In this document: piece after piece, positions 604-4,403 of the stretch
How positions within the stretch are numbered: position 1 is the first letter of the stretch
Layout: every line of letters starts with the position of its first letter
Assembly: GCA_020433785.1 (NCBI GenBank)
Contig: JAGRCC010000428.1
Location: 1-5,127, forward strand
DNA: 5,127 nucleotides
Origin: Anaerolineae bacterium
GTDB lineage: Bacteria > Chloroflexota > Anaerolineae > 4572-78 > J111
Reading direction: 5' to 3'
Translations under genes and position numbers: made by a program
The notes under the pieces: model-generated
Databases searched by the model: none
What the model saw: only the letters and a program-made list of their open reading frames with translations
What the model was told of the DNA's origin: nothing

Positions 604-632
604 TTGACAGCAAGTATAAATAGTGCTAACAT
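604..632 (+). promoter_or_regulatory. Sigma70-type promoter of csoR and the copper operon
   Basis: A perfect -35 hexamer TTGACA (604-609) is followed after exactly 17 bp by TAACAT (627-632), which matches the -10 consensus at four of six positions. The predicted transcription start, about 638-641, falls at the left edge of the operator, so bound CsoR would block RNA polymerase. The perfect -35 suggests a strong promoter held down by the repressor. Confidence 0.75.
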
Positions 633-637
633 ACAAA

Positions 638-663
638 TACCCCACCCCCTGGGGGGTGGGGTA
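638..663. promoter_or_regulatory. CsoR operator (G/C-tract palindrome)
   Basis: A 26-bp inverted repeat with perfect 12-bp arms, TACCCCACCCCC (638-649) and its complement (652-663), around a central TG. The TAC-plus-C-tract / G-tract-plus-GTA layout is the known signature of operators bound by CsoR/RcnR-family repressors. It sits directly after the -10 box and 25 bp before the csoR start codon, which fits autoregulation with release by Cu(I). No second copy is visible elsewhere in the window. Confidence 0.85.
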
Positions 664-688: not shown

Positions 689-958
689 ATGGATGAAGAA
701 ACAAAAAATATCGTAAATCGGCTTAAAAGTATCGAAGGGCATGTGCGTGGTGTAACCAAAATGGTGGAGGACGGCGCTTACTGCATCGACATTGTCAATC
801 AAATCAGCGCCATTCAGGCCGCGCTGCAAAAAGCGAGCGCCATGGTGCTGGATCGACATTTGCACACCTGCGTCACCACGGCCATTCGCGGCGATGATCC
901 AGCCGAGCGAGAGCGGGTCATCGACGAAATTATGGGTGTCTTTAACGCCAAGAAATAG
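689..958 (+). CDS. csoR: Copper-sensing transcriptional repressor, CsoR family
   Basis: This 89-residue protein has the length and all-helical pattern of the CsoR/RcnR/FrmR (DUF156) family. The family hallmark 'R-L-K-x-I-E-G-H-V-R-G' lies at residues 11-21. The copper ligands fit Cys32, His57 and Cys61; their spacing of 25 and 4 residues is the same as C36-H61-C65 of Mycobacterium tuberculosis CsoR, which supports Cu(I) sensing rather than nickel or formaldehyde. Apo-CsoR tetramers bind G/C-tract operators, and Cu(I) binding in a trigonal Cys-His-Cys site releases the DNA. The start at 689 follows a modest AAAGG (677-681) with 7-nt spacing. The operator immediately upstream implies autoregulation, and copZ and copA downstream are the expected targets. 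Function is well supported by both residues and context. Confidence 0.95.
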   Translation: MDEETKNIVNRLKSIEGHVRGVTKMVEDGAYCIDIVNQISAIQAALQKASAMVLDRHLHTCVTTAIRGDDPAERERVIDEIMGVFNAKK

Positions 959-1071: not shown

Positions 1072-1281
1072 ATGCAAACCAAAACATTCAAAGTACCCGG
1101 TATTTCCTGCGGTCACTGCGTCCGCACCATTGAAAATGAAGTCAGTGACCTGGAGGGCGTCAAAATGGTTTCGGCCTCGCAGGACACGAAGATGGTCACA
1201 GTCGAGTGGGATGAGCCGCCTCAAAGTTGGGAAGGCATCAAGGCCTTGTTGGAAGAGATCAACTATCCACCGGAAAATTAG
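1072..1281 (+). CDS. copZ: CopZ-like copper chaperone, single HMA domain
   Basis: A 69-residue protein made of one heavy-metal-associated domain with the beta-alpha-beta-beta-alpha-beta pattern. The metal site is Cys13-Gly-His-Cys16 in the segment 'G-I-S-C-G-H-C', equivalent to the family's MxCxxC loop with Met replaced by Ile. Such proteins bind Cu(I) in the cytoplasm and pass it to the N-terminal domains of CopA or to CsoR. The ATG at 1072 was chosen over an in-frame TTG at 985 because the extra 29 residues are the translation of the 998-1031 hairpin, and because AGAGAGG (1054-1060) precedes this ATG. The second helix carries a Pro-Pro-Gln-Ser-Trp insertion-like turn (residues 49-53), slightly unusual. 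Its place between csoR and copA makes a copper role more likely than mercury or zinc. Confidence 0.88.
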   Translation: MQTKTFKVPGISCGHCVRTIENEVSDLEGVKMVSASQDTKMVTVEWDEPPQSWEGIKALLEEINYPPEN

Positions 1282-1359: not shown

Positions 1360-1734
1360 ATGAAATTAGTTATCCGACTGGCTTTATTATGCGCCTTCAT
1401 CCTGCTCTTGGCGGGGTGCGGCGCTGAAGCGACTCCGCCGCTGGCGGTGGCAGGTGAACCAACCCTGGTTTACCTCTACACCGAAGGCTGACCCCCTTGA
1501 GCGGAGATGACACCCATCGTGGATGGGTTAGAGCAAACTTATCGCGGGCGGCTCGTTTTCAAACGCGTCAATGCCAATGAAGGCGACGGCCCCGCTATCA
1601 TGCGCGATTATCGCATTCCCGGCCATCCAACCACGCTAATCTTTGACAGCGAGGGACGAGAGGTTCAACGCTTCATCGGGCCACAGCCGGCTGAGGCGAT
1701 AGAGGATGTGATTTTGACGGTTGTAAATGAATAA
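1360..1734 (+). CDS. Thioredoxin-like lipoprotein with UGA-Pro-Pro-UGA active site (candidate double selenoprotein)
   Basis: Read through two TGA codons, the frame gives 124 residues. Residues 1-20 form a lipoprotein signal: Lys2 and Arg6, a hydrophobic run, then lipobox L-A-G-C with Cys20. A thioredoxin-like domain follows: strand 'TLVYLYTEG' (35-43), [TGA]44-Pro-Pro-[TGA]47, helix 'AEMTPIVDGLEQ', then 'RLVFKRVNAN' and 'YRIPGHPTTLIFD' with the cis-proline at Pro90. The two TGAs occupy exactly the CxxC cysteines and are the only interruptions. Cys11 and Cys20 use TGC and copA ends in TGA, so TGA is not a general cysteine codon here. A hairpin at 1512-1528 could act as SECIS. The product would be a membrane-anchored oxidoreductase outside the cytoplasm, possibly protecting or reducing copper-exposed thiols. 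The ATG at 1360 lacks a good Shine-Dalgarno; AGGA (1341-1344) is 15 nt away, and TTG 1357 or ATG 1327 are alternatives. A pseudogene with two hits is the main rival. Confidence 0.75.
1489..1500 (+). other. UGA-CCC-CCU-UGA: two candidate selenocysteine codons at the CxxC site
   Basis: TGA at 1489-1491 and TGA at 1498-1500 flank two proline codons in the frame set by the lipoprotein signal. CPPC is a common thioredoxin-like active site, so the expected protein is C-P-P-C with each Cys replaced by TGA. Both are one base away from TGC or TGT. The same frame is open before them from 1327 and after them to 1734. Confidence 0.7.
1512..1528 (+). promoter_or_regulatory. Candidate bacterial SECIS hairpin
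   Basis: ACCCATC (1512-1518) and GATGGGT (1522-1528) form a perfect 7-bp stem with loop GUG. It begins 11 nt after the second UGA and is 17 nt long; both spacing and size resemble the minimal upper stem-loop of the Escherichia coli fdhF SECIS. The loop holds a G-U pair of neighbours, as in the SelB-recognised loop. The bulged U of the E. coli element is not seen. The same hairpin lies 20 nt after the first UGA and might serve both. Confidence 0.5.
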
Positions 1735-1820: not shown

Positions 1821-4403
1821 ATGGCACAACAGCAACAGATCACCATGCCTGTTCTGGGCATGACCTGTGCCAACTGCGTGGCGACGGTTGAGAGAAACGT
1901 AAAAAAAGTAGAGGGTGTCGATGAGGCGGCGGTTAATTTTAGCACCGAAAAAGTCTCGGTTAGCTATGATCCGGCCAAGGCGACGCCGCAAGTCATTATC
2001 GATCGCATTGCTCGAGCCGGCTATGAAGTGCCGGTCGCCAGTATCGAACTGCCGATTACCGGGATGACCTGTGCCAACTGTGTCAACACAGTCGAGCGAA
2101 CGCTCAACAAAAAAGTACCGGGAATTCTGGAAGCGAACGTCAATTTCGCTACTGAAAAAGCCACGGTCAAATATATTCCCGGCGCAGTGACTCGCGCCGA
2201 TATGGTTGCTGCTGTTGAAAGAGCCGGCTACGGCGTGGTGGCCGCCGACTCCGACGAAGCGCTAGTCGATGCCGAAAAAGAGGCCCGTGAGCGCGAGATC
2301 AGGGATCAGACCCGCAAATTGTGGGTTGGGGTGATCTTTACGCTGCCACTGTTTCTGATGAGCATGGCCCGTGATTTTGGGCTGGTGGGTCACTGGGCTC
2401 ACGCCGGTTGGGTCAATTATCTGTTCTTGCTACTGGCCACACCGGTGCAATTTTACACCGGCTGGGATTATTACGTCGGCGCTTATAAAAGCCTGCGCAA
2501 CAAATCGGCCAATATGGATGTGCTGGTGGCGCTGGGCTCGTCGGTGGCGTACGTTTATTCGATTATCGTCACGGTCGGGCTGCTGGGCGGGCACGTTTAT
2601 TTCGAAACCTCAGCGGCGATTATTACCTTGATCAAAGTCGGCAAGCTGCTGGAGGTGCAGGCCAAAGGCAAAACCAGCGAGGCCATCAAAGCGTTGATGG
2701 GCTTGCAAGCCAAAACCGCGCGAGTGGTGCGTAACGGCACGGAAGTCGATATCCCGGTCGATCAGGTCGAGGTGGGCGATACCGTGATCGTTCGCCCGGG
2801 CGAAAAAGTGCCGGTCGATGGCGTCGTGGTGAATGGTTATTCCTCGGTCGATGAGGCCCTGTTGACGGGCGAAAGTTTGCCGGTTAATAAAAAAGTGGGG
2901 GATGAGGTCATCGGCGCAACGCTCAACAAGCAGGGCTTGCTCAAGATCGAAGCGACCAAAGTGGGACGCGATACGGCCCTGGCCCAGATTGTGCGGCTAG
3001 TCGAAGCCGCGCAAGGCTCCAAAGCGCCAATTCAGGCCCTGGCGGATAAAGTCGCGGCCATATTTGTCCCGGCAGTAATCAGTATCGCCGTACTAACCTT
3101 CATCGCCTGGCTGGCTAGCGGGGCGGGCTTCACTCCGGCGCTGGTCCGGCTGGTGGCCGTGCTGGTCATCGCCTGCCCCTGTGCCTTGGGTCTAGCCACC
3201 CCGACTGCGATTGTAGTCGGTATGGGGAAAGGGGCCGGGCAAGGCATTCTCTTCAAGAACAGCACCGCCCTCGAACGGTCGCATGCCCTTCGGGCTATCG
3301 TTTTGGACAAAACCGGCACCATTACCAAAGGCGAACCAGCCGTCACCGATATCATTGTCAGCGATGACGTATCGGAAGTCGGTAGTCGGAAGCCGGTAGT
3401 CAGTAGTCGGATGTCGGTAGCCGGGAGTCAGATACCCGAACTAGGGAGCGAACCAAATACCAATTATTCATCTCTCACCCCCCAACCTGATGCTTCATTC
3501 TCCATTCTCAATTCTCAATTCTCAATTCTCCGCCTGGCCGCTTCGGTCGAGCGGGGATCGGAGCATCCGCTGGGTGAGGCCGTGGTTCGAGCGGCACAGG
3601 CCGAAGGGTTGGCCTTGAGCGAGCCGGCGAACTTCGAAGCAATTGCCGGCCACGGGGTGGCGGCTGAAGTGGACGGGTATCGCGTGCTGTTGGGCAACCG
3701 GCGCTTAATGGAACGCGAAGAAGTTAACCTCAACGGCCTCGGTCCCAAGGTCGAGCAGTTGCAGAATGAAGCTAAAACCGCGATGTGGGTGGCTATCGAT
3801 GGCCAAGCCAGTGCGGTTATCGGCATTGCCGATACGATCAAAGACGGATCGAAGGAAGCCATTGCCAAACTCAAGAAAATGGGCTTGCAGGTGGTCATGA
3901 TGACCGGTGACAACCGGGCCACGGCCGAGGCCATCGCCACCGAAGTTGGCGTCGATCGGGTGCTGGCCGAAGTGTTGCCAGGCGATAAAGCGGCCAACGT
4001 TGCCAAGCTGCAAGAGGAAGGGCTGACAGTAGCGATGGTCGGCGATGGCATCAATGATGCCCCGGCGCTGGCCCAGGCCGATGTCGGCATCGCCATTGGC
4101 ACGGGGGCCGATGTGGCGATGGAAGCCGCCGGTATCACGCTGATTAGCGGCGACCTGCGGGGCGTTCCAAAAGCCATTGGGCTGAGTCACGCCACCATGC
4201 GGACCATCAAGCAAAACTTGTTTTGGGCTTTTGCTTACAACGTAATTCTCATTCCGGTGGCGGCCGGCGTGTTAACCTTCTTCCCCGGTTTGCCTATTTA
4301 CTTGCGCGAACTGCATCCCATCGCTGCCGCGTTTGCGATGGCCTTCAGTTCGGTCACGGTGGTCGGTAACAGCTTGCGTCTGCGTGGAGCAAAAATCGAT
4401 TGA
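1821..4403 (+). CDS. copA: Cu(+)-exporting P1B-1-type ATPase CopA with repeat-derived insertion
   Basis: An 860-residue inner-membrane pump that uses ATP to move Cu(I) out of the cytoplasm. Two N-terminal HMA domains carry GMTCANC metal sites (Cys16/Cys19, Cys84/Cys87). Predicted membrane segments begin near 167, 199, 232, 262, 412 and 440, with two more near 799-819 and 836-851. The transport site is Cys452-Pro-Cys454, with Tyr806-Asn807 in segment 7 and Met840-x2-Ser843-Ser844 in segment 8, the Cu(I) P1B-1 pattern. Catalytic motifs are TGES (349-352), DKTGT with phosphorylated Asp496, His582-Pro583, and GDGINDAP (741-748). The start is set by AAGGAG at 1807. Residues about 518-569 are an extra low-complexity stretch encoded by heptanucleotide repeats, making the protein longer than usual two-HMA CopA proteins (about 800). 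All catalytic motifs are intact, so it is probably functional. It would receive Cu(I) from the upstream CopZ. Confidence 0.97.
3370..3432 (+). repeat. Degenerate 7-bp tandem repeat (AGTCGGW) inside copA, nine units
   Basis: Nine consecutive heptamers fit a consensus AGTCGG(A/T): TATCGGA, AGTCGGT, AGTCGGA, AGCCGGT, AGTCAGT, AGTCGGA, TGTCGGT, AGCCGGG, AGTCAGA. The 63 bp stay in the copA frame and encode a Ser/Gly/Val-rich stretch just after the phosphorylation domain strand. It forms the left part of the copA insertion. Confidence 0.75.
3496..3530 (+). repeat. 7-bp tandem repeat ((C/A)ATTCTC) inside copA, five units
   Basis: Two copies of CATTCTC (3496-3509) are followed by three copies of AATTCTC (3510-3530). 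Read in the copA frame they give '[12 protein letters not shown]' with a seven-residue period. The array ends where normal CopA sequence (L-R-L-A-A-S-V-E) resumes. The unit resembles the CAATTAC heptamer in the copA leader. Confidence 0.8.

Follow-up and report, generated by a model that had tools for sequence, protein, structure and literature searches.

A copper gene cluster with an interrupted thioredoxin gene

The window, by which we mean the whole stretch of DNA analysed, is a contig of 5127 bases, and all genes noted in it sit on one strand. It opens with the end of an ORF that gave no Pfam match and breaks off inside a second cation ATPase gene; no tRNA genes were found in the window. 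Between these two partial genes lies a single-strand series consisting of a csoR-like repressor gene, a copZ-like gene, a thioredoxin-like gene containing two in-frame TGA codons, and copA. The features considered here are listed below.

604..632, plus strand: sigma-70-like promoter TTGACA-17-TAACAT upstream of csoR, from a consensus scan (10/12 matches; only suggestive)
638..663, no strand assigned: G/C-rich inverted repeat with an 11-pair stem, from the minus-strand listing; candidate CsoR operator
689..958, plus strand: csoR-like metal-sensing repressor (PF02583, 1.8e-28)
1072..1281, plus strand: CopZ-like heavy-metal-associated protein with GISCGHC (PF00403, 4.7e-14)
1360..1734, plus strand: UPPU thioredoxin-like lipoprotein, candidate double selenoprotein (read-through, PF00085, relatives, fold)
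1408..1419, plus strand: predicted lipobox LAGC with Cys20 (sequence motif; AlphaFold helix 3-19)
1489..1491, plus strand: first in-frame TGA, putative Sec44 at active-site position one (read-through)
1498..1500, plus strand: second in-frame TGA, putative Sec47 at active-site position two (read-through)
1512..1528, plus strand: hairpin ACCCAUC-GUG-GAUGGGU in the TPIVDGL codons, a bacterial SECIS candidate (folding)
1821..4403, plus strand: copper-exporting P-type ATPase of the CopA type with two HMA stretches (Pfam; TIGR01511)

CopA scores 604.6 bits against TIGR01511 (cut-off 397), and the gene ends with TGA. The CopZ-like protein falls slightly under the cut-off of TIGR00003 (59.2 bits; cut-off 62), and the csoR-like protein stays under that of the NCBIfam RicR model (74.9 bits; cut-off 175). 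Upstream of csoR, the inverted repeat TACCCCACCCCCTGGGGGGTGGGGTA resembles CsoR operators. Promoter matches of the sigma-70-like type are not commoner in the window than chance (one observed, against a mean of 1.8 in shuffles).

Several further features of the cluster were recorded as side observations. The spacer between csoR and the CopZ-like gene (998-1031) holds a perfect 15-bp inverted repeat with arms AAAAGGTGACTGTCA and TGACAGTCACCTTTT and 4 nt between them, a candidate terminator-like or repeat element. The spacer between the thioredoxin-like gene and copA (1733-1802) contains 26-nt arms that are 85% complementary, together with AATTACC repeats, and may represent a small mobile repeat. 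These AATTACC repeats (1782-1799) resemble part (3452-3469) of what appears, by eye, to be an in-frame low-complexity insert of about 50 residues in copA (3364-3535), located soon after DKTGTITKG and containing the internal repeats GTCGGTAGTCGG... and CTCAATTCTCAATTCTC. At its N-terminus (1821-2030), copA also matches the NF041115 model, UxxU_metal_bind, the whole protein scoring 104.8 bits over two stretches against a cut-off of 95, despite the fact that its HMA domains carry Cys. The metal-binding selenoprotein described by NF041115 may be related to Cys-bearing HMA domains like those of copA.

Two TGA codons at the active site of a thioredoxin fold

When TGA is read as U, positions 1360-1734 encode 124 residues, MKLVIRLALLCAFILLLAGCGAEATPPLAVAGEPTLVYLYTEG-U-PP-U-AEMTPIVDGLEQ..., followed by a TAA stop, with U44 and U47 as the sole departures from translation table 11. 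Under table 11 the frame falls into two ORFs, one of 54 aa that stops at 1491 and one of 75 aa that starts at ATG 1507. An open frame under the TGA=U code is no evidence in its own right, because 8 of the 13 listed ORFs of at least 110 aa contain a TGA under this code; the weight is carried by the position of the two codons and by the relatives. The motif across the sites is GUPPUAEM, with both U residues at CxxC cysteine positions, and an alignment to thioredoxin 3ziv places residues 44 and 47 on the cysteines of its CxPC motif. The chance that two random stops on 124 codons would land on exactly these two is 1/7626. The remaining two Cys codons of the gene are TGC (1390 and 1417), and the four neighbouring genes counted, of which one is incomplete at the contig end, contain 10 TGG codons and an in-frame TGA only as the copA stop. 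Codon-position GC is similar on both sides of the interruption (0.63/0.47/0.63 upstream, 0.66/0.40/0.58 downstream).

The read-through product, hereafter the UPPU protein, matches PF00085 (1.4e-10, 41.5 bits; cut-off 23.5) as well as PF13098 (Thioredoxin_2; 29.8 bits, cut-off 27). It scores under the cut-off of the thioredoxin equivalog TIGR01068 (43.2 bits; cut-off 96.8), and among the 11 NCBIfam families scored for it no model was above cut-off. An AlphaFold model, for which Cys was substituted for Sec and 47 aligned rows were used, has a thioredoxin fold with a mean pLDDT of 87.5. The top PDB fold matches of this model are thioredoxins, and residues 44-47 open its active-site helix (45-60). 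At the N-terminus the model contains a helix (3-19) next to the LAGC motif at Cys20, a predicted lipobox. The sequence-only reading had described one frame from ATG 1360 to TAA 1734 broken only by the TGAs at 1489 and 1498, with these codons exactly at the cysteines of an expected CPPC motif in a thioredoxin-like lipoprotein, Cys encoded elsewhere by TGC, and TGA serving as a true stop for copA. All of this was reproduced, the lipoprotein signal at the level of prediction; that reading mentioned copA only as a control for stop codons and contained neither the copper cluster nor the SECIS candidate nor the fusions to cytochrome c reported here.

Relatives of the UPPU protein occur in databases almost only as fragments, apparently because gene finders take the putative Sec codons as stops. 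Two protein searches returned 81 of 100 and 18 of 60 candidates at E<=1e-3, the second admitting only proteins of at least 83 residues. Four proteins were common to both, which leaves 95 distinct proteins and, since P0002 is the window's own tail, 94 relatives. On the read-through protein, residue 1 aligns to position 50 in 85 cases (P0002 included), to 51 in one, to 54 in seven and to 57 in one, so that 93 of the 94 relatives start 3-10 residues past the second TGA; the first residue is M in 92 and V in 3 of the 95. At most, these 93 starts indicate a frame break of some kind before them, by one stop or more, and in single entries a contig end is a possible cause of the late start.

The only full-length relative, P0008, has its residue 1 aligned to residue 6, is 55% identical to the UPPU protein and carries GWPPW against GUPPU. 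It has LTAC, and VAGEPTL and YT.G are common to the two proteins. The simplest reading of W at both sites is TGA translated with table 4, and these two tryptophans, at the protein level, suggest that relatives may carry TGA at both positions. Neither search returned a relative with Cys at both sites, although neither length limit would have excluded a full-length Cys form; the Cys-bearing proteins met in other comparisons were ordinary thioredoxins. In the tail, residues such as GHP, which we interpret as the cis-Pro loop of thioredoxin, are invariant or near-invariant among the relatives, which points to purifying selection. An organism name is attached to 10 of the 94 relatives, in every case that of an Anaerolineae, Anaerolineales or Chloroflexi/Chloroflexota bacterium. 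A cytochrome c domain (PF13442/PF00034) lies C-terminal to the thioredoxin tail in 11 of the 18 relatives of the second search (P0084, P0085, P0087, P0088 and P0091-P0097), all of which start after the Sec site; c-type cytochrome is the database name of P0092 and P0097 (Chloroflexi, Anaerolineae), and mono/diheme cytochrome c family protein that of P0096.

The interruption appears to be common to relatives, and we therefore reject a sequencing error or a local pseudogene as very unlikely. Likewise, a genome-wide code change is rejected because the neighbours use TGG and copA ends with TGA. The relatives bear out two expectations of the sequence-only reading, namely that gene finders would leave a 75-residue tail and that random decay is unlikely to explain the two stops.

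Searches for further DNA matches gave no additional member. A scan of a genome collection (P0001) produced 69 pattern stretches, of which one, on an Acidobacteria contig, passed tblastn; it covers residues 25-58 only and was judged by eye to be a chance match. P0001 gave four distant matches against the Acidobacteria genome G001 (best 34.2 bits), and among 396 relatives of G001 the one match at E<=1e-12 is an ordinary WCVPC thioredoxin. In viral contigs, DNA encoding GUPPU-x-(E/D)-M occurred at five places, three of them near-identical, and all were discarded on reading; viral scans at the protein level gave 13 stretches for A1, 15 for P0097 and 30 for P0001, none confirmed. Among the best 20 of 51 plasmid records from tblastn, all matches are under 60% identity and none covers 80% of the query; the annotated ones are thioredoxins and several lack annotation. 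Eight phage records are likewise all under 60% identity. A protein search with the N-terminal region gave four candidates, none at E<=1e-3, and is uninformative because P0008 is also absent from its matches.

A candidate SECIS hairpin and the selenocysteine machinery

According to the excerpted text of a 2026 review, bacterial SECIS elements have an upper stem of 4-16 bp and a loop of 3-9 nt whose first or second nucleotide is G (PMC13188914), with a UGA-loop spacing of 16-37 nt and a minimum free energy <= -7.5 kcal/mol (PMC13188914, Fig. 2 legend); some predicted elements depart from this model (PMC13188914). The hairpin at 1512-1528, with 7 bp, a GUG loop and -8.5 kcal/mol, satisfies all four published rules. 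It lies 18 nt from the second UGA and 27 nt from the first, and one hairpin can serve both codons because the loop is within 16-37 nt of each.

Such a hairpin is not rare, since about 4-6% of controls meet the energy rule. Among 1161 control codon positions in neighbouring genes, 71 reach -7.5 and 62 reach -8.5 kcal/mol, and 35 share one hairpin (<= -8.5) with the position 9 nt on; among 20,000 synonymous recodings, 4.0% pass -7.5 and 3.7% pass -8.5 kcal/mol. Longer stretches show no extra stability over shuffles (z of -0.07, -0.81, -0.63 and 0.16), and the minimum-energy fold is without the hairpin in two of these four stretches and in the fold of 1492-1545. Of the 87 proteins (P0002 among them) that extend across the hairpin-encoded residues, 77 retain PIVDG. 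This conservation is no proof of an RNA constraint, because ordinary thioredoxins have similar residues after the active site (APIIEEL in the 3ziv alignment). Rfam gave nine matches in the window up to E=5, all under their gathering scores and none of them SECIS. The hairpin is compatible evidence for Sec insertion and no proof of it.

We infer that the host genome possesses Sec genes. The accessible text on Anaerolineales single-cell genomes reports three formate dehydrogenases whose annotation includes Sec, as well as translation factors specific for Sec in several of the genomes though not all (PMC4959059); a 2006 survey, as excerpted, lists three selenoproteins in Chloroflexi (PMC1794560). 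SelB was above cut-off in 18 of 21 relatives of the Acidobacteria genome G001, a result that has no bearing on the window's host.

Interpretation and comparison with known systems

The best explanation as a whole is that the gene encodes a double-Sec, lipid-anchored thioredoxin-fold protein of a copper cluster in uncultured Chloroflexota, to which we assign a probability of about 0.78. Double Sec at UGA 1489 and UGA 1498 is very likely; this part of the sequence-only reading is supported, without being proven, by the late starts of 93 of 94 relatives, by W at both sites of P0008 and by a SECIS-like hairpin within range. Against it counts the cost of recoding two UGAs 9 nt apart, which can be expected to be high. 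If both TGAs were real stops, the conserved product would consist of the 75 residues encoded from ATG 1507 onwards, and the ORF ahead of it would be either a relic or a short peptide of its own. Gene finders do call such a product in nearly all relatives and its sequence is well conserved, but this reading is improbable: P0008 shares conserved sequence with the part ahead of the TGAs (LxxC, VAGEPTL, YT.G.PP), a product made up of the tail only would be missing the fold's active site and its first strand, codon-position GC is alike on both sides, and the stops fall exactly on both catalytic positions. Still less probable is that UGA is read as another amino acid, with an opal-suppressor tRNA supplying Cys or an altered genetic code giving Trp. 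The database entry for P0008 does show W at both sites, but the neighbouring genes with their 10 TGG codons have no internal TGA, copA stops at TGA, and Trp at both catalytic sites would be chemically implausible; moreover, the words 'UGA' and 'opal' do not occur in the accessible part of the Chloroflexi genetic-code paper (PMC5424206).

As to function, the UPPU protein is likely, with slightly more reserve than the double Sec itself, to be an extracytoplasmic thiol/selenol redox protein. A copper-specific role, suggested by the gene order on one contig, falls a little short of even odds. There is also a sizeable, if minority, chance that the double selenoprotein serves general extracytoplasmic thiol redox or cytochrome c maturation, and that it owes its place in the copper cluster to chance gene order or to a part in assembling cytochrome oxidase, not to detoxification. 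The cytochrome c domains in 11 of the 18 second-search relatives favour this broader role, as does the fact that no copper motif was noticed outside the active site. For some members of the family the fusions also suggest that electrons are exchanged with heme, which weakens a purely copper-specific role. The location of the gene inside a single-strand csoR-copZ-copA cluster argues in the other direction, as do copper-tolerance thioredoxin-like proteins of the ScsC type, which in the accessible text bind Cu(I) or aid resistance (PMC8900818, PMC5524982). Overall, the UPPU protein probably acts outside the cytoplasm as a redox partner in the handling of copper or cytochromes.

Under the double-Sec reading, Sec would be inserted at both UGAs, with the hairpin at 1512-1528 serving the two codons 9 nt apart, to give U44-P-P-U47 in place of the active-site cysteines. 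The protein would then be exported and lipid-anchored on the outer face of the membrane, where U44 and U47 could cycle as a diselenide/diselenol couple. As part of a putative copper-induced operon, it might keep outer-side thiols that handle copper reduced or correctly paired; alternatively, its selenolates might hold Cu(I) where CopA delivers copper. In the relatives with a C-terminal cytochrome c, the redox centre might exchange electrons with heme. More tentatively, and with the odds clearly against the full combination, one may picture a widespread, so far overlooked Chloroflexota class of extracytoplasmic UPPU thioredoxins with no Cys form and one PIVDG-encoded SECIS, acting in copper homeostasis and in diselenide-heme electron transfer.

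Among thioredoxin-like lipoproteins, the UPPU protein likely represents a new branch with double Sec (UxxU). If so, the known selenoproteins would gain a family in which both catalytic positions of a thioredoxin domain hold Sec, about 93 entries in databases would be its fragments, and the UPPU protein would offer a natural system for comparing diselenide with disulfide function and for studying one SECIS that serves two UGAs. No description of a UPPU thioredoxin lipoprotein was found in the accessible text of the open-licence literature on UxxU, Chloroflexi, copper, cytochrome and diselenide.

Selenoprotein L is a known example of a protein with a UxxU motif and a possible diselenide, as proposed for the UPPU protein. 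The Prx-like UxxU proteins also have this motif (excerpts of PMC2398784, PMC13188914); they are, however, placed in Prx-like families (PF00578), with a low similarity to pfam04592 reported in PMC2398784, whereas the UPPU protein matches thioredoxin. A peroxiredoxin-like domain was not found in the UPPU protein (Redoxin 16.6 bits, under 26.6; AhpC-TSA not among the Pfam matches). NF041115, which was not among the 11 NCBIfam families scored for the UPPU protein, resembles it in UxxU and in the heavy-metal setting. It is a 74-position model matched by HMA domains, and the HMA proteins of the window resemble it, with Cys. Membership of the UPPU protein in SelL or NF041115 is rejected.

ScsD-type proteins have an extracytoplasmic thioredoxin fold and a link to copper tolerance, and Scs-type active sites carry Cys, unlike that of the UPPU protein. 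The excerpted work on ScsC copper-tolerance proteins likewise ties an extracytoplasmic thioredoxin fold to copper tolerance, as proposed here for the UPPU protein; one ScsC has a subpicomolar affinity for copper(I), and for another a contribution to copper resistance is reported (PMC8900818, PMC5524982). In a table of 119 selenoprotein families, thioredoxin is listed as UxxC, and UxxU appears only in the rows for Prx-like, NF041115 and FmdB (PMC13188914, Table 1). With the UxxC thiol:disulfide interchange selenoprotein of PF13098, as excerpted, the UPPU protein shares the Thioredoxin_2 match and would share Sec, but it would have two Sec instead of a single one (PMC13188914). The selenoprotein thioredoxin of the UxxC type (PF00085; PMC13188914, in part) has the thioredoxin fold, the Pfam family and the proposed active-site Sec in common with the UPPU protein, and differs in having one Sec where the UPPU protein would combine two with a lipobox.
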